Under the pieces are notes generated by a model. It had not been told where the DNA came from and made no database searches. It saw nothing but the letters and a program-made list of their open reading frames with translations. Made by a program: the position numbers and the translations under genes. Shown here piece after piece: positions 1 through 30,073 of a DNA stretch of 32,466 nt; the stretch's first letter is position 1, and each line of letters opens with the position of its first letter. Origin of the DNA: a virus; IMG/VR virus record IMGVR_UViG_3300021168_000265, positions 1-32,466 of that record; one strand, 5' to 3'.

Positions 1-1954
1 AGTATTGATATATCTCAGAGAAAACACCGCTTGTTGTGTCGCCGCAAAAAAGATGGTGGTCTACATTGCGATTCGATCTGGCACTAAACCACCCTGCCTG
101 GATGTAGACATTGGGAAACTGAGGAACTTCAAAAAGGCCGTTACTGCTCGGAGTATATTGAAAACTCATTGTATCGGTTGGCGTCGAAGGCGAACAGTTG
201 TTATAAGGAGTGCCTTGAAAATCAAAACTGGGGTGCCCCCCGACGTTTACCGCCGCCATCCATGTCGCATTGCTGGCGTTCACGGAAAGACCTGAAATGT
301 CTGTGTTAAAAATGTGATTGTTCGGCAACATTTGGAAACCGCCAACCATGTGCTGCGCTGTAACGCTGGCTGGAGCCGTATAGACTCCGGTTCCTGCAAC
401 GATGCTGCCGTGACAGGCAGAGGCCGTTCCTGTGTTATCTGTACCCGCGCAAGCCCATGTGCCCGCCGCATCTGCTGTGAAGTTGATCGTTCCACCCTGG
501 TTGACTACGGGCTGGCCTGGAGTAATTACAGGAGCCGTTCCGCTTGGAAAGGTAACCGTCGTGCTTGACGCCACATCCCCGAGGTATTGAACCAAGAGAT
601 GTGTACCATCCGTCTTGACCGCCACGAAATCCGTGTTGAGTGTTTTCGTCACGCCACCCACCGTCATTCCGGTGGAGGATGCCGACCAGTTGGAAATCAG
701 CCATGCGGGACTGTGGAGAATTCCATTCGCTGAGATGCTCACTGTGTCTGCCGTGCGAGCGAGCGACCAATATCCCTGTAAGGCATCGAAGGTGCCGCCT
801 GTGGCATTCGTCGGCGTCATTGTCGGCGGCGTCTTATACTCCGCCACGAAAGGGGAAGCGGTTGACTCACTGATGATTCCGTTGTCGCCGATGAATCGAG
901 CATAAGTCCATGTTCGCGGAGTACCGGCAGCCAATGAAATAGCCGCATAAGTACAAGACGTGCGATACCCGCCCGAAAGATAGGTATATGGAGTGGTAGC
1001 AGAACATTGCTGCTCATTTTCGATGAACAAGGAATTTGCTTTGACGGTGTAGGAACTAAGCGTCGTGGATGTGCAACCGGAATTAGACGCTCCGTTACAT
1101 AGATAGAGTTGCCCAGGCGTTGGTCCATTAGGAGTGGCGTGAGTATCGGCAGGAATAAACTCCCCGGCATTGGCGGAGTTCGCCGCCACTGGAGCATAGA
1201 GAATATAATCCTTTGCCCCGCCTACACCAGGAGCTTGGTAAATAAGGCTCCACGGAGACGGAGTTGCGGGATCGAATCCCCAGGGATAACTGACGCTGAC
1301 CTCACCGGCAGCAACAAACCATCCAACCTCATGCAGGAAATCTTGGACGCTAATGTTCAGCGGACCTTTGCCGTCCGTGCCATCATAGGCGAGTTTTGCC
1401 TGTGTGAATAATTTTACTCCTCCCTGCCCTACGCCTGCACCCGCCCCGCCATGACGGTAAAATACCCATGTTTCCGTCAACACAATGCAGCAATCGGCGG
1501 GATTGCCGTAATAACCGACCTCCCTCAAATTCCCTGTCATGGTCAAAACTTTACGGACATTGTTATCCTCTGTGACTACAACCGTTCCGGGGCCTTCGGT
1601 AGCTTCCGGGTAGCGGTTGGTCGTGTCGCTGTTCAAGATGTTCCAGCGGTGATAATCGCCGCCAAACCCGTTGCGGAGGTTGTAGGTAGCGGAGGCGTCG
1701 TTCTTCAAATCATAGTAAGCTACGATCCCCTGGCACATCGTGAAACTCTGACTGCTGCCGCCACCCAGCTTGTTGCATTGGGTTGGATTCGGGATACCAT
1801 CACCTATCTGAAACTGAGCATAACCAGGAAACGAAAAGGTGTAGTAATGCGCTTCCGCAGGAGCAGTTACCACGACGCTTGAAGCTGCGGAAATCTGCGC
1901 ACTGGCTATTCTAGGAAGCAGAAGCAACAAAATTAGAATTACTTTGCGAGGCAT
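1..1954 (-). CDS. Secreted beta-rich tail-fibre-like protein with Ig-like region (3' end outside window)
   Basis: The reading frame is open from the ATG at 1954 to the left edge (651 codons), so the C-terminus is missing. Residues 1-19 form a Sec signal peptide (MPRK, Ile/Leu core, ASA|Q). The rest is Gly/Ser/Thr/Asn-rich and aromatic-rich, as in beta-structured adhesins. Around residues 485-560 an Ig-like stretch (GTWACAGTDN, later GVYTAPASVTAQ, then LLPNNHIFNT-like LPNNHIFNTD) resembles Ig-like domains I remember from Acidobacteriota proteins. The start overlaps the upstream stop by 16 nt, suggesting coupled translation; no strong Shine-Dalgarno is visible. Fifth in a row of five signal-peptide proteins in the tail-fibre position. 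Function is unproven: receptor-binding fibre or exported surface protein. Confidence 0.75.
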   Translation of the reverse strand, partial: MPRKVILILLLLLPRIASAQISAASSVVVTAPAEAHYYTFSFPGYAQFQIGDGIPNPTQCNKLGGGSSQSFTMCQGIVAYYDLKNDASATYNLRNGFGGDYHRWNILNSDTTNRYPEATEGPGTVVVTEDNNVRKVLTMTGNLREVGYYGNPADCCIVLTETWVFYRHGGAGAGVGQGGVKLFTQAKLAYDGTDGKGPLNISVQDFLHEVGWFVAAGEVSVSYPWGFDPATPSPWSLIYQAPGVGGAKDYILYAPVAANSANAGEFIPADTHATPNGPTPGQLYLCNGASNSGCTSTTLSSYTVKANSLFIENEQQCSATTPYTYLSGGYRTSCTYAAISLAAGTPRTWTYARFIGDNGIISESTASPFVAEYKTPPTMTPTNATGGTFDALQGYWSLARTADTVSISANGILHSPAWLISNWSASSTGMTVGGVTKTLNTDFVAVKTDGTHLLVQYLGDVASSTTVTFPSGTAPVITPGQPVVNQGGTINFTADAAGTWACAGTDNTGTASACHGSIVAGTGVYTAPASVTAQHMVGGFQMLPNNHIFNTDISGLSVNASNATWMAAVNVGGHPSFDFQGTPYNNCSPSTPTDTMSFQYTPSSNGLFEVPQFPNVYIQAGWFSARSNRNVDHHLFCGDTTSGVFSEIYQY

Positions 1955-3753
1955 TGATAATTTATCCAATAAGCTGTCGAAGTGGAAAGAGCTACACCGG
2001 CTGGGGTTGCTCCAGTAGCATTGGTCCATGTGAAAATGTCGCTCGTAGTGGATGGAGTTGTATCCCGGATCGTGACTAGCGAACCCCACTGACCCGCCCC
2101 GCCGTTGCTCGCCTCCATGACGCACGGAGGTTTGTTGGTGCCCATTGCGGCAGTAAAGGTCAGAGTGATCGTTCCTGTCAAGGCTGGTGCGCCGGTGCCC
2201 GTCGTGGCGATGATAATTCCGCCTTGATTATTACTGCCAGTATCCAAAGTACAAGAAGGAGAAGTACCGCCGCCGCTGGTGAACGTGCAGGTTGGGGCCG
2301 AACCGAACATCTGCAAACCGCCGCCAGTTAAAGGAAGGAATTCGGCTGTTTCCGCACGATTTGGACGGATAGAGATAGACTTCGCTCTTTGTGTACTAAG
2401 AGCAAGCCCCATAGATGTTCCTGACGAATCGCTTGCTTCGAGAATGTCCCAAGACGTTGATCCTACAGCGACGATCTCTACTCTTTGGTCATTGGTTCCG
2501 AATAAACTGTTCTGAAAAATTGCCAAACCGCCATTGTTGCTGTTCGTGTTGATGTCAAATTCATTCGCATTTGGCGCGACTAAATTGATGCCGTTTGTGT
2601 TGAAATTTATGGCGGTGCTTGTATTGCCGTTGATTAGTCCGGCCACGGCGGTAGCATGGACGATATTTGCGTCCGTTGCGGGAGCACTACCAGCCCCGCC
2701 ACCGTAAACAAAAGCGTTCGTTCCCAGGAGCGCCGAGGAAGATTCAACTGTTGTAGAACTGAAATATGGAATGCCGCCGGAAGTCACAGTTCCAGAAACA
2801 GTCACCGGGAATACCGGAGCACTCGCGCAAGCCGCCCCCGCATCCGCTAATATCGTGCCGGTTGTCCCTGAAAACTTCACGCAATCATTGTTAGTGGAGG
2901 ACGCAGGTAAGGCCGGGTTGCAAGCCACTTCCGCCCCGTTATTCCAGGAACAGATGTCGTGATGCGTGACGGAATCCGCCCGATGACAGTCTTGACCAGC
3001 AGTGGGTGTGCAAGCCGTCGAAGCTTCCGTTGCTGCTAGACAGCCGGTAGCCGTTCCACAGATGACAGGGGCCGTCCCGACGCTTACGCTTGAAGCCGAA
3101 ATGATTGGTTCCGTGCAGCTAAATGTTGTTGCATTGTCGGTGCAGGACGATTGCTGCGTGATCGTCGTGGCCGTCGTACCTTTGGGAATCACGTTGTTGG
3201 CTTGGCCGGAGACACTGCCGCCACCGCCCCCGGCCCCCCAAGTGCAAGGAGCAGGTCCATTACACACCCTAGATGAATTACTGGTTACGTTGTAGTAAGT
3301 CGATCCCACAGCGGGATTCAAAATCTCTCCATCTGCATAAGCCAGGACTCCCGGACCTGGAGAAATCGAAATTGTCGGCGGTGTAGCGTTGACCGTTTGC
3401 GTGGCTCCCGTCACCGTAACGTTCGCCGTTGTGAAGCATGGACTCGTCGCCTGCGGGCAGAATTGGAACTTCCATAAAGAGTTTATAGGCGTGATGGCTG
3501 TGTTCGACGGAACGGAAATGGAATACGATCCTGTGCCTGTCAGCGTGCCCGTAATCGTGAAGTTCAAAAAACCGCCCGTCCAAACGTATTGAGGTTGAGG
3601 AACGTAAAGAGGATTTGGAACGAACGTGGCTGTTACCGTGCCGTTGTTCCAGGATTGTCCGCCAGCATCGGTTACCTGCCCGCTCACGTTCGTGGATTGT
3701 GCGTGAGCCAAGCACGGCGACAATAGCAACAACACAAGCAACCACTTTTTCAT
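1939..3753 (-). CDS. Tail fibre-like protein with Sec signal peptide and shared N-terminal module
   Basis: 604 aa. The frame is open further upstream, but the ATG at 3753 is chosen because AAAGGA lies 5-6 nt before it and a perfect signal peptide follows (MKKWLL..., cleavage AHA|Q after residue 18). Residues 19-172 are a beta module (VSGQVTDAGGQSWNNGT ... GSTYYNVTS ... CNGPAPCTW) almost identical to that of the 727-aa protein at 8088-10271. A Gly/Ser/Thr-rich middle follows, then a C-terminal domain (about the last 115 residues, starting near APTCTFTSGGG) of a kind seen on many environmental phage fibres. Likely a receptor-binding fibre or spike, but the signal peptide is odd for a protein assembled in the cytoplasm. 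LSPC in the h-region is not a lipobox because Pro occupies -1. Confidence 0.8.
   Translation of the reverse strand: MKKWLLVLLLLSPCLAHAQSTNVSGQVTDAGGQSWNNGTVTATFVPNPLYVPQPQYVWTGGFLNFTITGTLTGTGSYSISVPSNTAITPINSLWKFQFCPQATSPCFTTANVTVTGATQTVNATPPTISISPGPGVLAYADGEILNPAVGSTYYNVTSNSSRVCNGPAPCTWGAGGGGGSVSGQANNVIPKGTTATTITQQSSCTDNATTFSCTEPIISASSVSVGTAPVICGTATGCLAATEASTACTPTAGQDCHRADSVTHHDICSWNNGAEVACNPALPASSTNNDCVKFSGTTGTILADAGAACASAPVFPVTVSGTVTSGGIPYFSSTTVESSSALLGTNAFVYGGGAGSAPATDANIVHATAVAGLINGNTSTAINFNTNGINLVAPNANEFDINTNSNNGGLAIFQNSLFGTNDQRVEIVAVGSTSWDILEASDSSGTSMGLALSTQRAKSISIRPNRAETAEFLPLTGGGLQMFGSAPTCTFTSGGGTSPSCTLDTGSNNQGGIIIATTGTGAPALTGTITLTFTAAMGTNKPPCVMEASNGGAGQWGSLVTIRDTTPSTTSDIFTWTNATGATPAGVALSTSTAYWINYQCLAK
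3238..3699 (-). repeat. Copy 2 of duplicated tail-module DNA
   Basis: This stretch encodes residues 19-172 of the 604-aa fibre-like protein and matches 9748-10211 closely along its length, both as protein and as DNA. Differences fall mostly at third codon positions, so both copies look to be under selection. It points to gene duplication or recombination among the phage's own tail genes. Confidence 0.8.
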
Positions 3754-3773
3754 AAAAATCCTTTCACTCACAG

Positions 3774-4247
3774 TTACGGTATGACGCGAATCGAATATGT
3801 CTTTGCGCCCGGCGTCAATGCAATAATCGCAACCAAATTCACCGTCACCGTGTTTGCTGCCGTCACCGTACAAGTCGGCGTCGCTCCGAGAGCAGCCATG
3901 TTCGTACCGTCACTCGCCTGGGCCTCGCAGACCATTCCAGTTGTCGCTCCTGTCACTGTGGCTGTTCCAGATGCGCTGGCTCCCACAGCGAGTAAGCCGC
4001 CGCCAATAGAACCTGTCGTGCCAGCCATAATCCCAGACGTTGCGCTTAACTTCCAAGCGCCCGCAGTGCAAGTCCAGGCGTTTCCAGTCGCGCTGTCGGT
4101 ATAGGTACTGCCGGAGATGCAAGCCCCAGTGGGTGCGCCGCTTCCGCTAGACGTTGAAGAACCAGCTAACTGCGCACGAACGGCGATTCCGGCAGGCAGT
4201 AGCCAGCCTAGAACAAACAGGAGATAGAGGTGACGCTTAGTAAGCAT
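3774..4247 (-). CDS. Small secreted tail-fibre-like protein
   Basis: 157 aa. A signal peptide occupies residues 1-25 (MLTKRH, hydrophobic core, VRA|Q). The mature part is Ala/Gly/Thr/Ser-rich and beta-like; the last ~85 residues (GSIGGGLLAVGAS ... CEAQASDG ... TYSIRVIP) resemble the C-terminal domains of the neighbouring larger fibres, so it looks like a stand-alone copy of that domain. The ATG overlaps the upstream gene's stop by 11 nt and the next gene starts 20 nt downstream. Possible roles are a fibre tip, a chaperone or a surface-exposed decoy; the sequence does not decide. Confidence 0.75.
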   Translation of the reverse strand: MLTKRHLYLLFVLGWLLPAGIAVRAQLAGSSTSSGSGAPTGACISGSTYTDSATGNAWTCTAGAWKLSATSGIMAGTTGSIGGGLLAVGASASGTATVTGATTGMVCEAQASDGTNMAALGATPTCTVTAANTVTVNLVAIIALTPGAKTYSIRVIP

Positions 4248-7200
4248 GGCACATTACCCTGATCGTATCGCTGCCAGCATAGCTTTGGAGCGCTGCGGCA
4301 TCCGTGAAAAGCGTCAACACGACCGAGGTTGTACTCACCGCTCCGGTCTGTCTTACCAGGAAGTTGGTGGTTGATATTGCGCTCACCGTGTTGGCATCGC
4401 AGACCCATCCTGTTGTTGCTGCTGGCATCGTGACGGTGCAAGCGGAAGTAGGAGTCGTGCCCGTGCCGATGCTGAACGCCGCTGTGCCGTTGTTGGCTGA
4501 GATCGTGGCACCTGAGCCGCCGCAACCTGCGCCTGCAATCGTAGGAGCCGTGCTGTTCAGCAAAAGATTCGTGACGTTGAGGCCAGGAACCTTCAGATTG
4601 TTGGACGATACAACAGGGTTCGCTATGGTCCCGGCTACAGCAGGGGCCGTGAACGTAGCGACTCCTGATGTGGAGCCTCCCATACCAAGAATCCCGCCTG
4701 CACCGCCCGCCGCCCCTGCCTGAAATGCGTTGCTGCTGATTACAGCATTGGAAAGCGTCCCGGCAACTGCTGGTGCTGTCAAGGTGGCAATGCCGGAAGT
4801 TGATCCGCCTAAGCCGAGTACTCCACCAGCGGTTCCTGCCGCACCTACTTGCCAGGAATTGCTGCTAACTACAGCATTGGTCAAAGTGCCCGCTACTGCC
4901 GGGCCAGTGATGCTAGCGGTACCAGAAGTCGTGCCAAGAAGATTGATTGTTCCAGAGGTTCCACCCACCGCACCGATGGAAGTTACGCCACCCTTATCTA
5001 CGCTAAACATCGTGACATTTCCAACCCGGAGGTTCTCCAAGAGCGAACCCGCCGCTGAAGATGTGTTGGTCACGTTTTCCACGATGCCTTGCCCCACTAG
5101 GCTCGCATTGTTCCAAGTCGATTCAAGTTGTATGATGGGCGGTCCAGTAGTCGCGGTTACTCCCGCTTGCTGCACCTCAAGGGGCACCGCTGTCGAGCCA
5201 GAGGCGGTGGAAACGTTGAGTTCCGCTTGATTGCCCAACAGATTTGTAAGCGTGCCACCCGTGGCAGCGGAAGTTTCGCCGTGCGTGAAACAATCTTGCG
5301 CGTCGTTCGTTTGAGCGCAGTTGAAGGTGACTGGGTTGTTGCCATCCGCAAACGTCGTTACGGCTCCCGTGGGGCTGACGACTTGATTGAGCGGGATGTT
5401 GGGAAGATCACCCGTGGCAATCGCGCGAAATGCCGGACGAGTCGCCGTGGCCGTGGCGAAAAGAGCTTGCGTAGTAGTCGTGCTATTCGCCGCCCGTACT
5501 AGCGGAAGAACGGCGTCATTGTTGTAGGTACATTCGACCGCATGGGCTGTTGAATCCGCGTAGCAGGCGTCAAAACTGCCCACTGCAAAATTAGCCGGGG
5601 CAGCGGCAATCTCGGGCAGCTTCCAAGTAGAAAAATTCATCTGCGCGAAGGCGGCAGGAGTAGACGTATGGTATTCGAGAGAGCAAGTGAACGAATTATT
5701 GCAGATATTCGGAGGACTCACATTGGCAAAGGCCCCGGTAAACAAGCCGTCAATGTCACAGTTGGTGCCACAGTTGAAGGGCAGCCCTGAATAAGTGCGT
5801 CCTCCAACTCCTCCGAAAATGGCGAACCCTTTTGCAGACCCGCTCCCAAAGCTAAACCAGTTTGCCGCAGTCGTTCCGCCACTGGTATCGTCGGTGATAT
5901 CGCCACCCTTGAGCAGCAACTTGGTGGAAGTTCCGCCGGTCACATAGACTAAATTCGTTGTCCCGTTATTCTCCCAATGCACATCCGTCGTCATTAATAC
6001 GGCATTGCTAACGCCGCTACCGAGCGCGATTCCCGCAACCGTGTTTGAGTCGATGGAACCGCCCTCAATGCTGATGTCGCCCGAGGTCGTGGCATTATTG
6101 AACTGAATCCCCGTGCCGTTCACAACGATAGTGGTGTTGGTAAAGACATCGTTCTCATGCGCCACGGTAAGCGCATAATTTATCCCCGTACTGTTGTATG
6201 AGATGACGCTGTTTAGAAAATGAACACCCCATCCAAAACCAGTCGCATCGTTGAACTGCACTCCAGTCCCGAATCCCTGCACCATGAAATTTAGAAATAG
6301 AGCACGCCGGATACCGCCATTCGTTAAGCCTATATTCAAACCGATAGCGGAAGACCCGCACCCGCCGTTTGTGGCGCAAGCATTGTTCACTAGGCCAAGA
6401 TTCTGGATGCCAGCGCCAGGCGTATAAGCGCCTCCCGTAGTGGGGGTCCAATCGAGAGTGAAGGCAGCGGTGGCCGTTGTGGGTGTGTAGTTGATGCACG
6501 CGCCGTCTGTAATCACGTTGGAACTGTTAGCGGTGAGCGATCCCGTGCCGATGACCGTTACGGCCTTGCCCGACACATTGAGATTGGCGGTAGAAGTCGC
6601 GTTGTAGCAGCCTCCCCCTAGCTGCGGACTAACATTGATGACACCCCCAGCAGTGGGCAGTGCAGCGTAACCATTCCCGATCTGCGCGAGAATGTCCGCA
6701 CCGGGAAACCACAGGGCTTGTATAACGTTTGCTAAAGCGCCTAGTACAAGTGTTCCCGTCCCCGCGAATATCTGCACAGGCGGGGCCAGAATCGGCCCGT
6801 TGATCGTGAGCGTAAATCCAGTCGTGGTGATCTGCGCTGGCGGCATGAACCTGAGTGTTACCCCGGACGCGCAGGTTACACTCGCATTCATAACTATTGC
6901 TTGAGATATAGTTACCGTTCCCGATGCTCCAGCGGCGGCACAAGCTGCTGTTAGGCCCGCGCTTGTGGCAGGATAGGTCGTGCCGTCGATGTAGAAGATG
7001 CCGTTTAATTTGGGAGTCGCTACTGGTTCTGGTGTGATGACTGTGGTTCCGTTGTCCGTCAAGCTGGAAGCTGTCACTAAGCCGTTCGTGACATTGGTCT
7101 GTTTTAGGATGGTGTTTGCAGCCGGTGCGGAAGCCTCAGCGAGACACAAGGCATCGGCATTATTTTCAAAGATGTGACAGTTGTTATTCGTCGTGTCGAG

Positions 7201-8067
7201 GCCGATAGTTGAGTTCACATTTGTCGTGAAGCCAGCCGCCTCGGGTATTTCCATTGTGACCGCGCTGAAATCCTGCAATCCTGCCGTATATACATTGGAA
7301 TTTCCAAGTATTCCAGTTCCAGCAATCAGGCTACCCAAATTCCCTGTCCCCGTAATCCCTGCGCTGAATGTGCCGAGGCCAGCAGCCGTGATGCCGCCAA
7401 GTCCAAGCGTCAAAAGGCCGCTTCCAGAGTTGTAAGTGAAGTTGTTGCTACCTGCGATTGAATTTACTCCGCTTCCGAATGCAACTTGCATGTTTCCGAG
7501 AGTGCCCGTGACACCGCCGCCAATCGAAAGCCAGGTACAGACCGGCACATTACAAATATGCTGCGTTGAGTCCGTCAAGTTGAAGTACGTGGCTCCCTGC
7601 TTGGCCCCAAATATCTCCGCATCCGTATAGGCCGCATAGAATCCCGGAAAAGATACGCTTACGACAATCGCAGGCGGAGTTACAGCGGAGGTGATGTTCT
7701 GCGTCGCTCCTGTGATGGTCAGGTTCTTTTGGTAGCAGCCATTAGTAGCCGTGGCCGCAGGGCAGACTTGGAACGTCCATTGCGAACCGGAAGGCGCAAT
7801 CGTCAGGTTATCCGGTACGGCAACGCCTGCGAAAGAGCCTGTATTGTCAAGGTTTCCTGAGATGATCTGGTTTTTGTTGAACGCTACACCATTCTGAAAG
7901 TAGTTGGCCGTGGGATTGGACGGCGAAGGCAAGAACGTCAGACTGTAGGTCCCATTCTTCCACACCACGCTTCCGGCGTCGGTGATCGTGCCGCTCACAC
8001 TAGTCGTTTGGGCATAGGCCGTCTGAGCCAAGAGCAATGCAAGCACGAGCGCGAGCTTCTTAAACAT
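4237..8067 (-). CDS. Large tail spike-like protein: signal peptide, N-module, beta-helix, tandem repeats
   Basis: 1276 aa from the ATG at 8067, chosen because the signal peptide starts there (MFKKLALVLA..., AYA|Q after residue 19) with AGAGG 10 nt upstream. A GTG at 8091 would add eight charged residues and overlap the upstream stop as GTGA. After the signal come a diverged copy of the N-terminal module (VSGTITDAG ... CNVPVCTW, to about residue 190), a region of short Gly-rich repeats, and a central right-handed parallel beta-helix-like part (NINVSPQLGGG-type turns, IQFNNATTSGDISIEGGSI), like pectate-lyase-fold spikes. Three 43-residue repeats lie at about residues 1030-1160, then a Cys-containing C-terminal domain. 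Likely a receptor-binding or polysaccharide-processing spike; no catalytic residues could be assigned. Confidence 0.8.
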   Translation of the reverse strand: MFKKLALVLALLLAQTAYAQTTSVSGTITDAGSVVWKNGTYSLTFLPSPSNPTANYFQNGVAFNKNQIISGNLDNTGSFAGVAVPDNLTIAPSGSQWTFQVCPAATATNGCYQKNLTITGATQNITSAVTPPAIVVSVSFPGFYAAYTDAEIFGAKQGATYFNLTDSTQHICNVPVCTWLSIGGGVTGTLGNMQVAFGSGVNSIAGSNNFTYNSGSGLLTLGLGGITAAGLGTFSAGITGTGNLGSLIAGTGILGNSNVYTAGLQDFSAVTMEIPEAAGFTTNVNSTIGLDTTNNNCHIFENNADALCLAEASAPAANTILKQTNVTNGLVTASSLTDNGTTVITPEPVATPKLNGIFYIDGTTYPATSAGLTAACAAAGASGTVTISQAIVMNASVTCASGVTLRFMPPAQITTTGFTLTINGPILAPPVQIFAGTGTLVLGALANVIQALWFPGADILAQIGNGYAALPTAGGVINVSPQLGGGCYNATSTANLNVSGKAVTVIGTGSLTANSSNVITDGACINYTPTTATAAFTLDWTPTTGGAYTPGAGIQNLGLVNNACATNGGCGSSAIGLNIGLTNGGIRRALFLNFMVQGFGTGVQFNDATGFGWGVHFLNSVISYNSTGINYALTVAHENDVFTNTTIVVNGTGIQFNNATTSGDISIEGGSIDSNTVAGIALGSGVSNAVLMTTDVHWENNGTTNLVYVTGGTSTKLLLKGGDITDDTSGGTTAANWFSFGSGSAKGFAIFGGVGGRTYSGLPFNCGTNCDIDGLFTGAFANVSPPNICNNSFTCSLEYHTSTPAAFAQMNFSTWKLPEIAAAPANFAVGSFDACYADSTAHAVECTYNNDAVLPLVRAANSTTTTQALFATATATRPAFRAIATGDLPNIPLNQVVSPTGAVTTFADGNNPVTFNCAQTNDAQDCFTHGETSAATGGTLTNLLGNQAELNVSTASGSTAVPLEVQQAGVTATTGPPIIQLESTWNNASLVGQGIVENVTNTSSAAGSLLENLRVGNVTMFSVDKGGVTSIGAVGGTSGTINLLGTTSGTASITGPAVAGTLTNAVVSSNSWQVGAAGTAGGVLGLGGSTSGIATLTAPAVAGTLSNAVISSNAFQAGAAGGAGGILGMGGSTSGVATFTAPAVAGTIANPVVSSNNLKVPGLNVTNLLLNSTAPTIAGAGCGGSGATISANNGTAAFSIGTGTTPTSACTVTMPAATTGWVCDANTVSAISTTNFLVRQTGAVSTTSVVLTLFTDAAALQSYAGSDTIRVMCHAY
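4588..4975 (-). repeat. Three tandem 129-bp repeats in the spike gene
   Basis: The motif encoding PAVAGT recurs at about 4631, 4760 and 4889, exactly 129 bp (43 codons) apart. Each unit reads roughly GGSTSGxATxTAPAVAGT followed by xNxVxSSN. The units differ at many silent positions, so the expansion is not recent. It probably forms a repetitive fibre shaft. Confidence 0.85.
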
Positions 8068-8087
8068 CAATCGTCTACCTCTTTCTT

Positions 8088-10271
8088 TCACTGTGACTGG
8101 CAGAAACTCCCCGGCTGAATCGTCAGGCCGTTCGCTACAGTCACTTGACTTCGCGCCAGTAAAGTCACGTTTCCAGCCGTAGCGCCGTTGGTGACGCTAA
8201 ACGTGACCAAAGCATCAAAGTCAGTCGCCGCCGTCCCAACCGCCGCACCAAGAGATGTGCTATAAGCGCCGGATGCTTCCGAACTGATCGGGGCCGTTCC
8301 CGTCGTCACCGGGAGCAATAAAGAATAGTGCAACGCGGTGAATCCTGCTGGCCCTGTAAATTCGATGTTAAGACCACCTGTCGCCGCCGATTGATAATAC
8401 AGGTGGCAAGTGACATCCAACTGATCGTTGGCGTCCACGTTCCACAGGAAGGGTTCGCCGCTGCCGCCCACGACGACGGTAAATGTGTTCGTGGCATTTG
8501 CGTAGGCCGTGCCGGTGAGAGTGGTCTTGCCGTTGACCGTGCCCGCTCCCGTGTAGACTGCGGTCCCTACCTGCACCATTTGGTCGGTGCCGTCTTTATA
8601 AAGCTGGCCGGCGTTGTTGTAGTTGAAGCCTGTACCCTGGCTGAACATTGAGTTGTGGCTGGAGTAGGCGCGGGCGCTCGCTGCGGTGAGGCAGATGTCA
8701 GAAGTGTTCGTGCCCAGCCGGTTGCCGAGGTTGTTCCCGACAAACACGGCAGAGGTATTCGCCGCTCCTGTGTAAGCGCATCCGGTGCCGTTGCCGAAGA
8801 TCGTGACTCCTAAAATCTGCCAAGCCTCCGGGGTTCCCTGCGCGACGTTGGTGATCGCCGAGCAGTTCGCGCCGGTACAGCTAATCGTCCCGCCAATCAA
8901 CTGCCCACCGAAATCGAACAACTTCGCGCCGTTGACGCTGCCGTTAAACTGTCCGTGAATGATGCTCTGCGTTTTCCACTGATCGTAAAGGCCCACCGCG
9001 CAATTCTTACTTACTGGATTGATAGCCGTCGTGCCGTCGATCTGGCTTGCCCAACAAGCCGTGGGAATGCTGGTGGCGACAAAGTTGTCTATACGCACGT
9101 TCTCAACTGGGTTGCCCGTAATGCTGGCCATGAAGTTCTGGTTGCTGGTGCTATTCGCTACTTCGGGGCCGGGAACGACTTTGAAGTCGTGGACATAGGC
9201 TGTATTATTCGCCATTCCCAAAACTTGGCTTGTAGTAGCGGTCGTCGCAAACGGCGGAAACCACAACTGCGTGGATTCCTGCCCGTCACCCATCAGCGTG
9301 AAGGGGCTGGTACTGGAGGCAAATATGCCGCTGTTAAAAATCTGGTGGTTGTCCCACATGTACACGCCGGTATTGGTGACCGGAAAATAGAGCGTCTGGC
9401 CTGCCGTGAGCGCCAGTTCCGCCGCATGAATCGCCGCGTAGTTGTTGGTCCCGATGTGGCATTGCTGCGTGCCCACGGTCTGAGTGGCGTTGCCGCTCAG
9501 CACGATGTCGCTGGTGTCGGTGACACTTGAAATCGTGCCCAGCGTGAAGGCGTTCCCATTGTTGGAGTTGTAGATGTAGATTTCCTTGCCCGCATCGGAT
9601 GGCAGAAACAGCGCGGCACTCGTCACATTGGGGGTTGTGTTGGTAACGCCGCACAGCACGTCGCGACCGTCGTCCACGGCGAAGTAAGGGGACTGCGTGA
9701 TGTTGACCCACTTCGTCGGCGCTCCACCCACTACACCGCCAGCCACAGCCCAAGTACAAGGAGCGGGTCCGTTGCACACTCTTTGTGCGTTGCTCGTCAC
9801 GTTGTAGTACGTCGATCCAATGATGGGATTCAGAATCTCCGCGTCCGCATACGCCAGAACTCCCGGACCGGGAGATATGGAGATCGCGGGAGGCGTGGCG
9901 TTCACCGTCTGCGTTGCGCCAGTCACGGTAACATTTCCTGTCGTGAAGCATGGGCTTGTCGCCTGCGGACAAAACTGAAATTTCCAGGAAGAGTTTACGG
10001 GCGTGATCGCACTGTTCGACGGCACGGAGATTGAATAGGAGCCAGTTCCCGTGAGCGTGCCTGTGATCGTGAAGTTGAGAGCGCCGCCCGTCCACACATA
10101 TTGAGGCTGCGGAACGTAGAGAGGATTCGGGACAAATGAGGCCGTCACCGTGCCATTGTTCCAGGATTGACCTCCAGCGTCGATGACTTGCCCGCTAACG
10201 GTTGTGGACTGCGCCCAAGTTGACCGAGCCAGAGTCAACAAGATCGCCAACAACAAAATCCTTTTGTACAT
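8088..10271 (-). CDS. Tail spike-like protein with signal peptide and beta-helix region
   Basis: 727 aa. The ATG at 10271 is preceded by GGAG within the upstream gene's last codons, and a signal peptide follows (MYKRILLLA..., TWA|Q after residue 20). Residues 21-175 are the shared N-terminal module, nearly identical to the 604-aa protein. The middle (NYAAIHAAELALTAGQTLYF, then MGDGQESTQLWF and VRIDNFVATS) has the look of a pectate-lyase/parallel beta-helix spike, followed by a C-terminal beta domain ending CQSQ. It lies 2 bp after the ATP-grasp gene and shares GTGA with the next frame. Likely receptor-binding or depolymerase-type spike; no active-site assignment is possible by eye. Confidence 0.8.
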   Translation of the reverse strand: MYKRILLLAILLTLARSTWAQSTTVSGQVIDAGGQSWNNGTVTASFVPNPLYVPQPQYVWTGGALNFTITGTLTGTGSYSISVPSNSAITPVNSSWKFQFCPQATSPCFTTGNVTVTGATQTVNATPPAISISPGPGVLAYADAEILNPIIGSTYYNVTSNAQRVCNGPAPCTWAVAGGVVGGAPTKWVNITQSPYFAVDDGRDVLCGVTNTTPNVTSAALFLPSDAGKEIYIYNSNNGNAFTLGTISSVTDTSDIVLSGNATQTVGTQQCHIGTNNYAAIHAAELALTAGQTLYFPVTNTGVYMWDNHQIFNSGIFASSTSPFTLMGDGQESTQLWFPPFATTATTSQVLGMANNTAYVHDFKVVPGPEVANSTSNQNFMASITGNPVENVRIDNFVATSIPTACWASQIDGTTAINPVSKNCAVGLYDQWKTQSIIHGQFNGSVNGAKLFDFGGQLIGGTISCTGANCSAITNVAQGTPEAWQILGVTIFGNGTGCAYTGAANTSAVFVGNNLGNRLGTNTSDICLTAASARAYSSHNSMFSQGTGFNYNNAGQLYKDGTDQMVQVGTAVYTGAGTVNGKTTLTGTAYANATNTFTVVVGGSGEPFLWNVDANDQLDVTCHLYYQSAATGGLNIEFTGPAGFTALHYSLLLPVTTGTAPISSEASGAYSTSLGAAVGTAATDFDALVTFSVTNGATAGNVTLLARSQVTVANGLTIQPGSFCQSQ
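9748..10211 (-). repeat. Copy 1 of duplicated tail-module DNA
   Basis: Encodes the N-terminal module after the signal peptide of the 727-aa spike and matches 3238-3699. Runs such as gccgccc(g/a)tccacac-type codons and the segment around VPQPQYVWTGG are conserved at DNA level with mainly silent changes. A third, strongly diverged protein-level copy is in the 1276-aa spike (about 7530-8010). Confidence 0.8.
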
Positions 10272-10273
10272 CC

Positions 10274-11584
10274 TTAATCTCCGTAAACTGGTTTCAACCA
10301 GCCATTTGCCTCAAGTTCGTTGTAACGCTTAGCCGTCAGGTTGCGAATATCCGTCCGGTACTGAAGGTTTGGCACGCGGATCGCTTCGATGACGGCCTTC
10401 ACATGGTCGAAAGCCATGCCAATCGTCTCTCCGCACCCAATGGCCGCACCCAAAAATCCACTTACGCCCGCTGTCTCAAACTTATCTTCGTCCATCTCGT
10501 TCACGCGCATGTCCATCGCATAGAAACTTGTCAGCAATTTCCGGTTCATGCCCTCAATCGGGATGCCCGCGCGAAAATGTTTTCTGGGGATTCCATCGCC
10601 CAGTCCCGGCTCGTGCGGCTCGTTGGGATACGGGGGCACCGACAGGCGTACCGATGCAGAAAAGGAATGCCGTGGAGTAAGGTCAGGGAGGCTCTCGCCT
10701 CGGGTAAGGGCGCAAATGAATTTTCCAAAATCCATCGGCAGAAGGTGAGCGACGTTACAGGTACCCTCATAACCCACTCGGGGTGTCCATTCGAGTCCAA
10801 AGACTTCTCCCTCTGTAGCAATAGAGTTCAGGTCGATCATGCCGACGTAGCCCGCATCGTGCAGCGCGTGCAAGGCTTTCTTTAGCCCCAGACAGAACAG
10901 CGCATTCTCGCGTTCCGGCGCGAAGACCAGGTTCCCGGAGCATCCCGTGGCTGGCCCCAGATCACCATTCATAAATTTCTTGCATTCGAGCGTGTGATTC
11001 AGGAAATAGTAGCCGTTGCCGTTCATCCACACTTCGGTTGAGACTTCCGTTCCGCGAACGAACTCTTGCAGGATGAACTCAGTTATGGGATTGTTTCGCC
11101 ACAGCACTTCGATGTAGCGCAGCAAATCTTCCGCCGACGTGCTGACGTAAGTCGAAGCAGTGTCGGCCTTCTTCCCGCACGGTTTGAACACGTAGGTCTT
11201 TTTTGTTTTCTTGATGAAGCGGATGGCGTCGGCTACGTCGGTGAAGTGCTCGTAGGGAGGAACTTTGATCCCGGCTTGCTCCATGAACTGAATGCCGAAG
11301 AGTCTGTCATCCTCCAGTTGATCCGCGAAGCTGGAATCTCCGAGCGTCGGAACTTTCTGCGCCACCTCGTCGGCGAGCTTGCCAGAGCCAGTCTGATCAA
11401 ACAGGATAACGTCGTATTCTTCGGGTTCGTACATCGCGGATTCGGAAGTTTGTTCGATCAAACCTCGCAGAACATCGCGCCCCGAATCCTTCTCGACGGA
11501 AAGCGAAACATCATGGCCTGCTTGCTTCATTAGCCAAGCCAGCCAAGCGCCTTCTCCGAACTTCGACAGAACACAAATTTTCAG
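10274..11584 (-). CDS. PurD-like ATP-grasp ligase, non-canonical start
   Basis: About 436 aa, close to the usual GAR synthetase length (~430). All three PurD parts are visible: an N-terminal Rossmann-like strand (KICVLSKFGEGAWLAWL), an ATP-grasp core (FKPCGKK 133-139, LQEFVRGTE near 172-180, LGPATGCSGN 209-218, D251, E265) and the C-terminal domain (SASVRLSVPPYP; NLQYRTDIRN near 406). Known family members join glycine to phosphoribosylamine using ATP. Here the usual E-x-N-x-R metal site reads E-W-T-P-R, so the substrate may differ. The first canonical start is the ATG at 11530, but that would cut off the first beta-strand; the coding similarity continues to CTG 11584 (GGGG 6 nt upstream) or ATT 11578, with an in-frame TGA just before. 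It lies between small proteins and tail spikes, an unexpected place for purine synthesis. Confidence 0.8.
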   Translation of the reverse strand: MKICVLSKFGEGAWLAWLMKQAGHDVSLSVEKDSGRDVLRGLIEQTSESAMYEPEEYDVILFDQTGSGKLADEVAQKVPTLGDSSFADQLEDDRLFGIQFMEQAGIKVPPYEHFTDVADAIRFIKKTKKTYVFKPCGKKADTASTYVSTSAEDLLRYIEVLWRNNPITEFILQEFVRGTEVSTEVWMNGNGYYFLNHTLECKKFMNGDLGPATGCSGNLVFAPERENALFCLGLKKALHALHDAGYVGMIDLNSIATEGEVFGLEWTPRVGYEGTCNVAHLLPMDFGKFICALTRGESLPDLTPRHSFSASVRLSVPPYPNEPHEPGLGDGIPRKHFRAGIPIEGMNRKLLTSFYAMDMRVNEMDEDKFETAGVSGFLGAAIGCGETIGMAFDHVKAVIEAIRVPNLQYRTDIRNLTAKRYNELEANGWLKPVYGD

Positions 11585-18698: not shown

Positions 18699-20036
18699 TC
18701 AATTCGGATTCCCGCCACGGAATGGACCTCGACCAACTCCGCCCCCTCCGCTGCCACTCCCGCTACTGCCGCCCCCAGTAACACCCGTTCCTACCGGCTG
18801 CGCTCCGATAGGCAGGCTCCCTAGCGTGCCTGTCCATACTTCTTCACATCGGCCCGTCTGAAGAAGTCCCGGCGTATCGAACGCCATCCAGTTCTTGTCT
18901 TCGATGGAGTACCAATAGTGTCGCGTGAACGTCGTCAGAGGAATCGAAATCCTGTAGGTCAAGTAAACGTAGCCAAGTCTCTCCGTGGGAACGATGGCCG
19001 CTGTAGGAACTCCGCTCGTCAAAGCCAAGTCCGCCATGATCGCGTCTCGAGCTTTCCCTCCAATCGCCTCGAAACTCGCCACGCCCATTTGATAGATTTG
19101 CTCAACCGAGATGAAGCACACGATGGAACCGTAACTGTGGATCGACCAGGAGTAGACGTTGCCGATTCCATGATTGGACGCCCAGAGATGATCGAACTGA
19201 AACGGTACGAGAGAACTTCCCGTTGGCGTAAAGAACGTGATTCCATTGGTGCGGAACAGGTAGCCGCTGACACCAATCGTGACAAGTCCCGTGATGGCGT
19301 CCGGCACATCGAGGAAATCGTTCTCTCCCGCGCTGGTATTGGACGCGAAATCCCACTGCGTTGGTATTCCGTTTGCGCTCCACCATAGACGGTTTGGGAA
19401 ACTGTAGATGGTTCCGTTGGGATTATCGAGAAGCGAAATGTTGGCGAGCAAGAGTTGGTTGTTCAACTCTCCGAGAAATAATCCCCCAAACGAAAGCGGA
19501 CCCGTGGAACCCGGCACGATGGTCGGCGCATCCGCTGTCGCTATCGCCGCAACCGAAGTTGCGCCGGGCGCACCGGAATTAGAAGCTGTGGGCGACGTAG
19601 CGATGCCGTCCCACGACGAGAGAAACGTTCCTCCGTTCGTGTAGTAAAGAACGTTGGCGAATGCCTGATACGCGACAGGATTCCCAGCAACCAGATTCGG
19701 ACCGCCGAGAATCGACCACGGCGACAGCGCACCAGGAGGAAGTCCCGAGGGAGCTAGTTGCCACAGCCCGCGCGTATTCCAGCCTACAGTGTGTGTAACG
19801 GAATTTACGTCGTTGAAACTATAAAGACCGAGCGCCGGGTTGATGGCATCCATTCCGGCGTACTGGAGCGCGAAACTCGCACGCGACCGAAGCTCTTTGT
19901 TTCTGATTTGGAAATTGTTTGCGAAAGGAGTGCAATTGTCAGGAATTTCGGTCTCAGGCTCCTGGACGTTGAGGCCTCCGTCGAAGCCTTTGTAAGTTAT
20001 TTCGAAGTATCCAGCCTTGCCCCATTGAATCGACAC
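18699..20036 (-). CDS. Tail nozzle / DNA-stabilisation protein (gp10-like)
   Basis: 445 aa with a GTG start at 20036 and GAGGGG upstream. The N-terminus FDGGLNVQEPETEIPDNC followed by FANNFQIRNKELRSR is the typical opening of P22 gp10-like packaged-DNA stabilisation or tail proteins, in which a beta-propeller forms the tail nozzle. Repeated blades are suggested by SPFLSS/SWDG and LWWSANGIPTQWDF motifs. The last ~35 residues are a Gly/Ser low-complexity tail (GGGSSGSGSGGGGVGRGP), unusual for the family. It helps define the particle as short-tailed. Confidence 0.65.
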   Translation of the reverse strand: MSIQWGKAGYFEITYKGFDGGLNVQEPETEIPDNCTPFANNFQIRNKELRSRASFALQYAGMDAINPALGLYSFNDVNSVTHTVGWNTRGLWQLAPSGLPPGALSPWSILGGPNLVAGNPVAYQAFANVLYYTNGGTFLSSWDGIATSPTASNSGAPGATSVAAIATADAPTIVPGSTGPLSFGGLFLGELNNQLLLANISLLDNPNGTIYSFPNRLWWSANGIPTQWDFASNTSAGENDFLDVPDAITGLVTIGVSGYLFRTNGITFFTPTGSSLVPFQFDHLWASNHGIGNVYSWSIHSYGSIVCFISVEQIYQMGVASFEAIGGKARDAIMADLALTSGVPTAAIVPTERLGYVYLTYRISIPLTTFTRHYWYSIEDKNWMAFDTPGLLQTGRCEEVWTGTLGSLPIGAQPVGTGVTGGGSSGSGSGGGGVGRGPFRGGNPN

Positions 20037-22366: not shown

Positions 22367-23314
22367 CTACGGCCCGAAGCTGCCGAACGTTCCGTACCAG
22401 GTCGTAGCTCCCACGGAAAATCTCTGCGTGCTCAAGAACAGCAACACCTGCGTCGCAAAGTCGTCGTCAGTCTGCGCCATGATCGGCTCGCGTTCGTAGA
22501 ATTTCATCTGATGGCCCTCTTTCTCGGCAATCAGGAACCATGCGCTCGCGCTCGTCAAGTAGTTCAATTCCAGACCTTGCAGGTTATCGGCTTGCAGCGC
22601 ATTCAGTTCGTTGTCGTTGGTGTAGGGCTTTCCCGGAGAACCGAGAATCTCGCGCACGATCCAGCGCAACTCGGGCGGATGAATCAAGTGCCGTGGCTGT
22701 ACGTGAACGGGGATGCCGCGTCCATCGGGCATTCTCGTAAAAATGTTGATGGCCTGCTGTAGCGCCGTGAAACTCAGGTCCGCGTCCGGGTTCGGACGAT
22801 TGGGATATGTTCCGCTCGACGTGATGATGTTTGATATGCCGGGCGCCAAGTTCGTTGCTTCCGCGCCGCCTAGCAACGGCTGCGACGTGTTGAATAGCGA
22901 GATTCCAGTATTCGTCAGCAGCGTCGTGCCGCCCAGATTGAAGATCGACGCCGACACGGCTTCGCGTCCGAACAGCGCCGAACGTCCATGCGCCTTCGGT
23001 ATTTGCCGGATGATGCCGTACTTGTCGTCGGCGATCAGTTGCCGCGTGGCCTGCGAAAGAAGCCCGTACTGGAGATGCACGTACTTCTTCGTTCCGCCCT
23101 GCACGATGCCGTCCGCAATCGGTCGCGTCCCTTCCGGCATTTCCGGCATCGGGCCGGTCCCGGACAATTCGTAGTCGATCTCATACGCATCTTCCGAAGT
23201 CATCTCGTTCAGGTAGTGCGTGTACTGCGGGGAGCGTTGCTTAAGATCGAAGAATTGCACGAAAATATGACGCATCCCAGGAGCCAGCAGTGGCGGGAAG
23301 TTTGCGCGGCTCAT
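22367..23314 (-). CDS. Major capsid protein
   Basis: 315 aa (321 if it starts at ATT 23332). It is the expected gene after scaffold and decoration candidates, and the sequence matches HK97-fold capsid proteins of Mu-type and podovirus heads: GGTKKYVHLQYGLLSQATRQ, IADDKYGIIRQIPKAHGRSA, ASIFNLGGTTL, the segment PDADLSFTALQQAINIF and the C-terminal PIMAQTDDDFATQVLLFLS. The ATG at 23314 has no nearby ribosome binding site, whereas a perfect AGGAGG sits 7 nt before an in-frame ATT six codons upstream. I kept the ATG as the conservative start. It should self-assemble into the icosahedral shell on the scaffold. Confidence 0.85.
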   Translation of the reverse strand: MSRANFPPLLAPGMRHIFVQFFDLKQRSPQYTHYLNEMTSEDAYEIDYELSGTGPMPEMPEGTRPIADGIVQGGTKKYVHLQYGLLSQATRQLIADDKYGIIRQIPKAHGRSALFGREAVSASIFNLGGTTLLTNTGISLFNTSQPLLGGAEATNLAPGISNIITSSGTYPNRPNPDADLSFTALQQAINIFTRMPDGRGIPVHVQPRHLIHPPELRWIVREILGSPGKPYTNDNELNALQADNLQGLELNYLTSASAWFLIAEKEGHQMKFYEREPIMAQTDDDFATQVLLFLSTQRFSVGATTWYGTFGSFGP

Positions 23315-25561: not shown

Positions 25562-25824
25562 TCTTTCATCTCCTCTTCAAACTCCAGGAGCCGTTCCAGG
25601 ATCGCCACTTGACCGCGTTGAAAGTTCTGCTCCGCCTGTCCTTCCGGCGTTGGTTTGATCTCATGCACTACGCGATGGGAGAGGTCCGCGTGCAGCAGCC
25701 GCAGGTCCGTTAGGAGATTCGCCCATGCCGGGTGTGCTACCAGGGACTGCGCTTGTTCCAGACGGGCGAAACTGCTGGGCCATCTGAACGACTCTTGGAT
25801 CGACTCCACCCGGCGCTTGACCAT
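25540..25824 (-). CDS. Small protein overlapping the portal 3' end
   Basis: 94 aa. Its first 55 codons are read in another frame inside the portal gene (165-nt overlap). AAGGAG, 9 nt before the ATG at 25824, supports the start. Charged, helical and Trp-containing (LVAHPAWANLLTDLRLLHAD, QRGQVAILERLLEFEEEMKE), like small conserved proteins that follow portal genes in environmental phages. Function unknown; the overlap covers the low-complexity portal tail. Confidence 0.65.
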   Translation of the reverse strand: MVKRRVESIQESFRWPSSFARLEQAQSLVAHPAWANLLTDLRLLHADLSHRVVHEIKPTPEGQAEQNFQRGQVAILERLLEFEEEMKEWQQSHK

Positions 25825-27709
25825 TGGGTTTCGCTCCTTCTTCTTCCGGGAACTCCACGTCAGGAATGTATTCCTCCGGTTGGTCGGACAGATTGAAGTC
25901 CCGCACGATCTGCTGCATGAGCCGCGTTCGAGACTTGATGATGCTCACGAGCCACTTCTTATAGAACGGCGGCGCTTGGGCATTCTGCACTGCCTGAATC
26001 ATGGTCGAGGCTTCTTTGACATACAGCATGGTCGCCTGATTCAAGAGAAGCTCGTTCTGCTTGGTGACTTCCTTGTTGGCGCTGGCCGTCGCCGCGCGAA
26101 TGGGAATCTTTACGCGACGTTCCAAATAATCCTGCAGCGCCTCGTCAAGCAAACGATCATCCAATCCGAAGAGCGATCCTTTTCTTCCGAGGCCCATAGC
26201 CCCATACATGTCAGTAAGCAGCCCGAATAGCTTGACGTGAGCGTGTCGGAAATCACTCGTTCGGTGAGCCACGCGGGTATTCGAATCTTGCATGACGGCG
26301 AGCGTCCCCATGCTTCCGTATTGCGCATTGCGCCCCCTTCCCATCAATCCGCCCGCGCCCTGCCCCGCCACAGCCGGACCCACGCCCGCCCGCTCCCGCG
26401 CCTGCTGGATCATGGCCGCTTCGTTCTCCAGCGACAGGCTTCCCATCATTGGATTGCCCACGTCGTAGTGCTCGAACTCGTCCTTGTTGAACGGAACTGC
26501 CGCGCCGGGGAATATCTTAAAGTTTCTGTCAATGTTCTTGTTCATCGGGCTGGCACGATTGATGCCCAGCATTCCCCAAGTGATCGCGTCCGTGCGCTGG
26601 TTCTTGGCCGTGCTGATCTCTTCCTGCGAATACTTCAGCATTGACGCATAGCCGGTGCCGTTCATGCCTTTCTCTCCGCTCGACAGCCGCGTGCGCACCA
26701 CGGGAATCTGGTTTTCAGGGATGAAGTTGAACACCTGGTTCATCACCGTTTTTGTCTCGTAATGAAACCACGCAATCAGGCGGAACTTCTTGTGATTGTG
26801 ATACCAGTAGAAATAGCACTCTTCGATGTCCCACTCGGCGAGAACCTTGTCTTCGCTCGCGTCGCCCGTGCCCTTCGTCTTCTCCGCTTTGCGCCGCGTC
26901 TCGTCAGGGCCGTAACGGTCGGGATGCCCGAGAATCAAAGCGACCGAGCCTTTCTTGTAGAGACCCTTGAACTCGCGCTCTTGCAGCATCCGTCGCGTCA
27001 GCGTCACCTTGCGCGAGAAGAAGTCGGAATCTTCCGGCGTATCCACTTCTGGATCGTAGAGCGTGTCCTCATCCCGTAAGTTCAGCACACGCGGACCTTC
27101 GTACAGCGTGGCCTCTTCAAAGTTCGATCCCTTCGCCGTCTTGTCATAGCCGACAAAGACTTGCTCGACGCGCTGCTCCGGCACGGCGCATATCCAAGCT
27201 GTCCCCAATTTTGCTGAATCGCTGAACCAGATGTTCTCCCGATTCCACAGGTCCAGCTCGTTCGGCTCGTAGGCGAAGTAATCCATCGCCTGTTCGAGTA
27301 TCTTCGACTTCTTCGCGTTGTTTTCGATTTCCTGCGGGTCTTTGGACTTCGTGAAGTAGCGATAGAGAGCGATGGGAGCCGTGGCCCAGATAATTCCCAT
27401 GACGCGAGCCGCCAAATCGTCCGTGGCTTCGCCTACGATTTGATGGACGAGATTCGCGCAGTTCTCAAACGGCCACGACTTCTTCTCTTCCTTCGGTCTG
27501 CCCTCCGCGATGAGCCGCCACTCGGGTACCAGTTTCTTGTGCCGATTCTCTAGTTGCCTTCGTCGCGCGCGGATTTGCTCGTACAGCCAAGTCTTGATGG
27601 CTTCGTCCACGTCCTTTGAGAACGAAGTCTCACGCATTTCAAATTTACGCTTGCTGCGATAGCTTAATTTCGGGGTTTGCTCAGGAGCGATCTGCGGGAG
27701 CGTTGCCAA
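25661..27709 (-). CDS. Portal protein
   Basis: 682 aa with a TTG start at 27709, supported by GAGGAG 6 nt upstream. It follows TerL and resembles podovirus portals: NLVHQIVGEATDDLAARVMG, SKILEQAMDYFAYEP, the beta-region of DEDTLYDPEVDTPEDSDFF, NQIPVVRTRLSSGEKGMNG and the stem/wing helices near LLTDMYGAMGLGRKGSLFG. The portal forms the dodecameric ring through which DNA is packaged and ejected. The last ~60 residues are Pro/Gly/Ala/Ser-rich and encode part of the next gene in another frame. Confidence 0.85.
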   Translation of the reverse strand: MATLPQIAPEQTPKLSYRSKRKFEMRETSFSKDVDEAIKTWLYEQIRARRRQLENRHKKLVPEWRLIAEGRPKEEKKSWPFENCANLVHQIVGEATDDLAARVMGIIWATAPIALYRYFTKSKDPQEIENNAKKSKILEQAMDYFAYEPNELDLWNRENIWFSDSAKLGTAWICAVPEQRVEQVFVGYDKTAKGSNFEEATLYEGPRVLNLRDEDTLYDPEVDTPEDSDFFSRKVTLTRRMLQEREFKGLYKKGSVALILGHPDRYGPDETRRKAEKTKGTGDASEDKVLAEWDIEECYFYWYHNHKKFRLIAWFHYETKTVMNQVFNFIPENQIPVVRTRLSSGEKGMNGTGYASMLKYSQEEISTAKNQRTDAITWGMLGINRASPMNKNIDRNFKIFPGAAVPFNKDEFEHYDVGNPMMGSLSLENEAAMIQQARERAGVGPAVAGQGAGGLMGRGRNAQYGSMGTLAVMQDSNTRVAHRTSDFRHAHVKLFGLLTDMYGAMGLGRKGSLFGLDDRLLDEALQDYLERRVKIPIRAATASANKEVTKQNELLLNQATMLYVKEASTMIQAVQNAQAPPFYKKWLVSIIKSRTRLMQQIVRDFNLSDQPEEYIPDVEFPEEEGAKPNGQAPGGVDPRVVQMAQQFRPSGTSAVPGSTPGMGESPNGPAAAARGPLPSRSA

Positions 27710-29501: not shown

Positions 29502-30073
29502 GCCGCTGTCCCTAGTGCCGCCGACTTCTTTACACGACGAAGTTCAAGGTGGCCGCTGATCTTCGCCAGCACTTCCGACTCGCGCAAGATGACGATGGTG
29601 ATTTGCACAGGATTTCCTTGCATGTCCTCCGCCGTCAGATCGTAAGCATGGCCCGCGAAGGAAGGATAGATTACCGACTGCCCGCGCTCGAAATGCGTCA
29701 CTTCGTTCCCGATACTCGCTATCGTTCCCGTCGTCGGTCTGCGCTCGCTCGCGTCCGGCACGATGATCACGCCGCCCTTACCTTCACAAGCGGGACAACG
29801 AACGAGACCTCTTCCTTCGCAGTGGGAACATTTGACCTTAAGATCGTCGGCAAGATCACGCTTGCGCCAGTTGAAACCAAGTCCGCTACATTCGGGACAA
29901 ATAACGTGCGAAACTTGATTGATGACGTTCTTGCCGCCGCACACCGTACACTCGTACCCACTCACAAACGGGTCTTGCACAATCAGCAGGCGATCCGCAT
30001 GAGCCTGCATCGTCATGGTCCCAAGTTTCAGGACGTTCGTTTCCAGCGCCGAAGCCAAATCTATCTCAGGCAC
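29498..30073 (-). CDS. GroES-fold cochaperonin with inserted DnaJ-type zinc finger
   Basis: 191 aa with a GTG start at 30073 and GAGGA 9 nt upstream. The ends fit GroES: HADRLLIV (residues 25-32) matches LHDRVIV, KGGVIIVP (99-106) matches the GroEL-binding mobile loop GGIVLT, TGTIASIGN (115-123) matches RGEVLAVGN, ERGQSVIYPSFAGHAYDL matches VGDIVIFNDGYGVK, and ILRESEVLAKI (162-172) matches IMSESDILAIV. Between the first strand and the mobile loop lies a DnaJ-type finger with four CxxC motifs: CTVCGGKN 42-49, CPECSGLG 59-66, CSHCEGRG 82-89, CPACEGKG 93-100. Like T4 gp31 it could steer host GroEL to fold capsid proteins. It sits between TerS and TerL. Confidence 0.8.
   Translation of the reverse strand: MPEIDLASALETNVLKLGTMTMQAHADRLLIVQDPFVSGYECTVCGGKNVINQVSHVICPECSGLGFNWRKRDLADDLKVKCSHCEGRGLVRCPACEGKGGVIIVPDASERRPTTGTIASIGNEVTHFERGQSVIYPSFAGHAYDLTAEDMQGNPVQITIVILRESEVLAKISGHLELRRVKKSAALGTAA

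Follow-up and report, generated by a model that had tools for sequence, protein, structure and literature searches.

Fibre-like proteins with Sec signal peptides and paired cysteines in the late operon of a soil phage

The tail fibres and tailspikes of Caudoviricetes are modular, with a shared N-terminal anchor and exchangeable bodies, and there are several of them per phage. Tail fibres normally fold inside the cell and are assembled on particles in the cytoplasm, and we know of no description of Sec-exported fibre assembly at lysis in Caudoviricetes. Among phage proteins that do cross the Sec translocon, the coat proteins of filamentous phages, for example M13 G3p, are made as Sec preproteins (available text of PMC8310372), and Sec-exported endolysins carry a Sec signal and act outside the cytoplasm (an example in the available text of PMC8951688). 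The accessible text of the open-licence papers searched yielded no report of tail fibres with signal peptides.

Here we analyzed a virus record of 32,466 bases (hereafter the window), which is listed as linear in IMG/VR and is possibly a fragment. It carries a cassette of five consecutive genes, SP1 to SP5. As with the fibres and tailspikes of Caudoviricetes, the cassette lies in the late operon among tail genes, with several genes in a row, and a shared N-terminal module (a putative anchor) is combined with bodies that are unrelated between close relatives. Unlike those proteins, the cassette proteins have a Sec signal and paired cysteines, and they match no known tail-fibre profile. They resemble M13 G3p, as described in the available text of PMC8310372, in being virion proteins that cross the Sec translocon, with the qualification that the virion role is putative for the window proteins; unlike M13, the window, with genes for a terminase and a capsid, belongs to a tailed phage, and its proteins have no clear C-terminal membrane anchor. 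They differ from Sec-exported and SAR endolysins, as they lack a lytic domain and four of the five are far larger, and from the small, lipobox-bearing superinfection-exclusion lipoproteins of the Cor/Llp type, as they lack a lipobox and four of the five are large.

Layout of the late operon

Gene calls were made mechanically. The minus strand of the window carries a tailed-phage head module (terminase, portal-position gene, capsid and phrog_3287 protein). Past the head genes, in the same direction, come three genes of unknown function, which occupy the place of internal virion proteins, then an ATP-grasp gene and then the five signal-bearing genes:

27828-29501, minus strand: terminase
25661-27709, minus strand: large gene at the portal position, no profile match
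22367-23314, minus strand: capsid
18699-20036, minus strand: phrog_3287 structural protein
10274..11530, minus strand: ATP-grasp (PurD-like) gene, directly upstream of SP5 with a 2 nt gap, same transcription unit
8088..10271, minus strand: SP5, signal, shared module and body, 727 aa (ORF, signal rule, module match)
9720..10211, minus strand: mature N-terminal module of SP5, predicted beta-sandwich that has two conserved pairs of cysteines and closes with a G-x-x-Y-Y-N...C...C-x-W element
4237..8067, minus strand: SP4, signal, shared module and long body, 1276 aa (ORF, signal rule, module match)
3774..4247, minus strand: SP3, small signal-bearing protein, 157 aa, two cysteine pairs (ORF, signal rule)
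1939..3753, minus strand: SP2, signal, shared module and tail-fibre-like body, 604 aa (ORF, signal rule, module match)
2..1954, minus strand: SP1, signal-bearing, without the shared module, at least 651 aa, C-terminus beyond the window (ORF, signal)

The junctions from the ATP-grasp gene to SP1 measure, in order, 2, 20, -11, 20 and -16 nt, which marks out a single, tightly packed transcription unit. The original prediction had given the cassette a TATAAT box of its own, an idea that did not survive: TATAAT occurs five times in the window against 4.3 expected, which is the chance level, and only 2 nt separate the ATP-grasp stop from the SP5 start. Promoter-like sites in general were no more frequent than in shuffled sequence, and no cassette-specific promoter was found among them. 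The idea that the ATP-grasp gene is functionally tied to the cassette was also rejected, since one relative has this gene but no signal-bearing cassette. Apart from the cassette and the conserved core, the late operon of the window has no large gene that could serve as a spike candidate.

Two further observations concern neighbouring genes. The ATP-grasp frame can be extended (10274-11550, minus strand), as the gene in relatives begins VKICVLS... and this stretch is in frame here, preceded by CTG where the relatives start with V; the true start may be this CTG or the later ATG at 11530. Adjoining the terminase, at 29498-30073 on the minus strand, a DnaJ-type zinc-finger region is fused to a GroES-like region, which may be compared with the annotated chaperonin-10 gene near the terminase of MW202796, a distant relative.

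Signal peptides, the shared module and cysteine pairing

Signals were called with a rule-based score of our own, not SignalP, that considers a charged n-region, an 8-residue hydrophobic core and the -3/-1 rule. In line with the original prediction, which placed Sec signals on all five consecutive genes at 1-10271, the rule called a signal in 5/5 cassette genes and in 0/24 other genes of the window, while 0.3-4.7% of shuffled N-termini pass it. The N-termini up to the predicted cut, and the three residues that follow it, are MPRKVILILLLLLPRIASA and QIS in SP1, MKKWLLVLLLLSPCLAHA and QST in SP2, MLTKRHLYLLFVLGWLLPAGIAVRA and QLA in SP3, MFKKLALVLALLLAQTAYA and QTT in SP4, and MYKRILLLAILLTLARSTWA and QST in SP5, where the cut was placed by eye and the rule scored an earlier one. 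All five are of the standard Sec/signal-peptidase I class, with short h-regions, clear A-x-A sites and Gln at +1; a lipobox, a twin-arginine motif and a clear C-terminal membrane anchor were looked for in SP1-SP5 and none was seen. The objection that the true start codons lie after the signals was also considered: Shine-Dalgarno-like sequences stand ahead of 4/5 starts (weak at SP1), and a start placed after the signal would remove the conserved module from SP2, SP4 and SP5. At the DNA level the signal has diverged (24/54 identical) compared with the adjoining module, which is kept (369/475), and both versions remain signals. Judged from sequence, the signals in the cassette are real and not a product of chance.

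About 160 aa behind the signal are common to SP2, SP4 and SP5. This module is absent from SP1 and SP3, such that the idea of a shared cassette holds for three of the proteins and fails for the other two. The module is modelled as a beta-sandwich with a mean pLDDT of 93, while SP5 outside it, and likewise the bodies of the cassette proteins, are poorly modelled. Comparison of the module with the PDB gave no match at E<=0.001, and the weak similarities seen (best E 0.0015) were to intradiol dioxygenases, pilins and a phage neck protein. The module model does resemble parts of predicted phage proteins, some of them annotated as tail fiber or collagen-repeat proteins, which is a possible further likeness to Caudoviricetes fibres. 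The whole SP5 model matches phage proteins among predicted viral structures, some annotated as tail fiber or collagen triple helix repeat, with the longer alignments resting on the poorly modelled parts. The element that closes the module also has cysteine-free copies, for example GAEYFNTTSLLTRVWNGSAW, which resemble what we take to be a phage tail-fibre motif. Profile searches of SP1-SP5 against Pfam and PHROG matched neither a tail-fibre profile nor a lytic domain, and SP1 had no match in Pfam, PHROG or NCBIfam. Pieces of the SP4 C-terminus also occur in signal-bearing proteins of other phages, and neither SP4 nor the SP5 module had a match in public phage records.

The cysteines provide evidence on export that does not depend on the signal score. 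In 64/66 complete signal-bearing proteins of 200 aa or more, the cysteines of the mature part add up to an even number, as they do in 57/59 after clustering at 40% identity; related sequences are not fully independent, but the counts range from 2 to 44. Among signal-less genes from the contigs that supply these proteins, those with 6 or more cysteines have an even count in 33/58. Cysteine content is 2.2% in the signal-bearing proteins versus 0.77% in signal-less structural homologues. The module cysteines form two pairs that are kept or lost together, and among SP3 homologues one cysteine pair has switched to other positions. Parity and paired loss indicate disulphides formed outside the cytoplasm, and the overall pattern is that of extracytoplasmic proteins with disulphide bonds. 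Together with retention of the signals in relatives, the parity and the concerted loss of cysteines strongly support the export that the original prediction proposed, and we consider export with disulphide formation of the cassette proteins very probable.

Soil relatives and cultured Acidobacteriota phages

The soil phage contigs of IMG/VR yielded 47 distinct copies of the module. The rule called a signal in 42 of them, and the remaining five are fragments, duplicates, or GTG/TTG-started genes whose N-termini look signal-like by eye. Relatives fetched by the capsid gene alone have signal-bearing genes in every contig that spans either the cassette region or the structural operon in full. Conservation is high in the core genes, but cassette proteins of different relatives mostly have unrelated bodies, as would be expected of receptor-binding proteins. 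The cassette is old, many independent contigs of related phages have it flanked by phage genes, and one genome-contig scan found no bacterial homologue of the module, with seed patterns so narrow that absence is not proven; the suggestion of recent capture from a host is therefore not borne out.

The place of the signal-bearing genes in the late operon varies: after the ATP-grasp gene, before the terminase, between the MCP and phrog_3287 genes, or before the MCP gene. In contig L117 (5892-8177), for instance, a signal-bearing module gene stands directly before the terminase, a position unlike that in the window. Some relatives have further large, non-core, signal-less genes that are possible spikes, and signal-bearing proteins of relatives carry domains of extracellular type (CHB_HEX_C_1, Fn3_assoc and a weak beta-helix). 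Contig L127 has the module and SP3, with neighbouring proteins that do not match the structural genes of the window. Homologues of SP3 occur in four phage contigs, in similar cassettes; the one at L113:9561-9974 has a called start without a signal, unlike those in L104 and L105. MW202796, which shares the gene order and has capsid and ATP-grasp homologues, has fibre genes without convincing signals, situated between the capsid and stabilisation genes.

The trait also appears in culture. Tunturi_1 and Tunturi_2 (PP887698, PP885685; PMC11924767) are cultured Acidobacteriota podoviruses with five signal-bearing genes, and like the window they have several large genes of this kind in a row. In Tunturi_1 these are ORF12, 13, 14, 16 and 17, with ORF13 scoring weakest (5.7), and the cysteine counts are even in ORF12, 13, 14 and 17. 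Across the two phages the five are annotated as hypothetical, tail fiber, tail spike or pectin lyase, and virion structural protein. Unlike the Tunturi phages, the window has the module, for which Tunturi_1/2 gave no match, and bodies are shared only in a stretch of SP2, which is 47% identical over 87 aa to Tunturi_1 ORF13 (its Tunturi_2 counterpart is annotated as a tail fiber protein), and in one domain shared with a relative. The structural genes of Tunturi_1/2 have no detectable relation to those of the window, so that the signal trait occurs in two lineages, the stretch common to SP2 and ORF13 notwithstanding. A search of IMG/VR with the Tunturi_1 tail spike found no relatives, and the words 'signal peptide' were not found in the available text of the paper on the isolates (PMC11924767). 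No signal-bearing run of genes was found in Tunturi_3, which grows on the same host strain, Tunturiibacter psychrotolerans X5P2, nor any among the tail genes of Tunturi_4 (to 50 kb) and Tunturi_5 (to 286 kb). Since Tunturi_3 infects that strain without such genes, the arrangement is not needed on that host, and a host requirement for the cassette was rejected.

A Ca. Sulfotelmatobacter (Acidobacteriota) MAG includes, by binning, a 5-kb contig whose capsid gene is 93% identical to that of the window. This one match points weakly to an Acidobacteriota host, as the phage contig is short and was placed by binning. The same contig (L156:2986-3846) has a signal-bearing gene of 286 aa between head genes, just before the capsid.

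Possible fates of the cassette proteins

Of the options offered by the original prediction, fibre assembly on the outside at lysis is the best, with decoys, superinfection blockers and secreted adhesins as possible alternatives. The five genes would encode late-expressed, modular fibre- or spike-like proteins of a podovirus-type Acidobacteriota phage. A cleavable signal would direct each protein to the Sec translocon, the protein would leave the cytoplasm, and the signal would be removed after export. Each would then fold in the periplasm, an oxidising compartment where most or all of its cysteines would form disulphides. The mature beta-sandwich module of SP2, SP4 and SP5 would most likely be a docking domain, while the variable bodies may bind or cut surface glycans or other receptors. 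At or after lysis, particles from the cytoplasm would meet the periplasmic pool, and the proteins would most likely join virions as receptor-binding spikes. Support at the level of sequence covers the signals and their retention, the cysteine pairing, the modular fibre-like build, the late-operon position and the recurrence in cultured Acidobacteriota podoviruses. Incorporation into virions is put forward tentatively, as a real possibility, and the same tentative standing applies to the whole chain, in which Sec-exported, disulphide-bonded, modular receptor- or glycan-binding fibres join progeny virions at lysis.

The proteins could instead be exported and remain free, never entering virions, as periplasmic or extracellular adhesins or as proteins that bind or cut glycans; they would cover or remove the receptors of the infected cell and of its debris, thereby blocking superinfection or wasted adsorption, or would open the extracellular matrix. 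Signals and disulphides fit that case, and the varied positions of the signal-bearing genes in the late operon favour it, as do the CHB_HEX_C_1, Fn3_assoc and weak beta-helix domains of relatives and the module in L127. The same scattered positions, which cargo genes might show, weigh against a virion fibre, together with the module and SP3 in L127, the spare signal-less spike candidates of some relatives, Tunturi_3 without such genes and the missing match to any Pfam or PHROG tail-fibre profile. However, three points favour joining of virions over free secretion: nothing else in the window is a spike candidate, the proteins are built like receptor-binding fibres, and large signal-bearing genes are regularly present in these phages, including relatives fetched by the capsid gene alone; the annotations in the cultured phages as tail spike or virion structural protein also speak against free proteins, which we regard as possible but somewhat doubtful.

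The remaining alternatives are less probable. If the conserved hydrophobic N-terminal helix were left uncleaved, the fibres might be anchored in the inner membrane, where particles would mature, or the segment might stay in the virion; short h-regions, clear A-x-A sites, Gln at +1 and even cysteine counts beyond the cleavage site make this unlikely. Domains such as CHB_HEX_C_1, which are widespread in bacterial proteins, might suggest bacterial genes recently taken up by the phage or mis-assembled beside it, but phage genes flank the cassette in numerous independent contigs and the one narrow-seeded scan yielded no bacterial module homologue, leaving this explanation very improbable. That the signals are an accident of leucine-rich N-termini, without a role, is hardly credible: up to 4.7% of these genes' shuffled N-termini do pass the rule, yet all five cassette genes pass it, nearly all module copies retain a signal and the cysteines are paired.

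Arrays of large fibre-like proteins that appear to be exported and cross-linked outside the cell are present in a soil phage, in dozens of phages related to it and in two cultured phages of Acidobacteriota. By extension, and more tentatively than for the window itself, some tailed phages may build their receptor-binding apparatus outside the cytoplasm, through Sec export, periplasmic disulphides and addition at lysis. The setting is a phylum abundant in soil, of whose viruses little is known, and the cultured pair with the same trait, Tunturi_1 and Tunturi_2, makes the question directly testable. If the fibre-like proteins are exported, they would represent either a second route of assembly or a distinct class of surface proteins that phages secrete.
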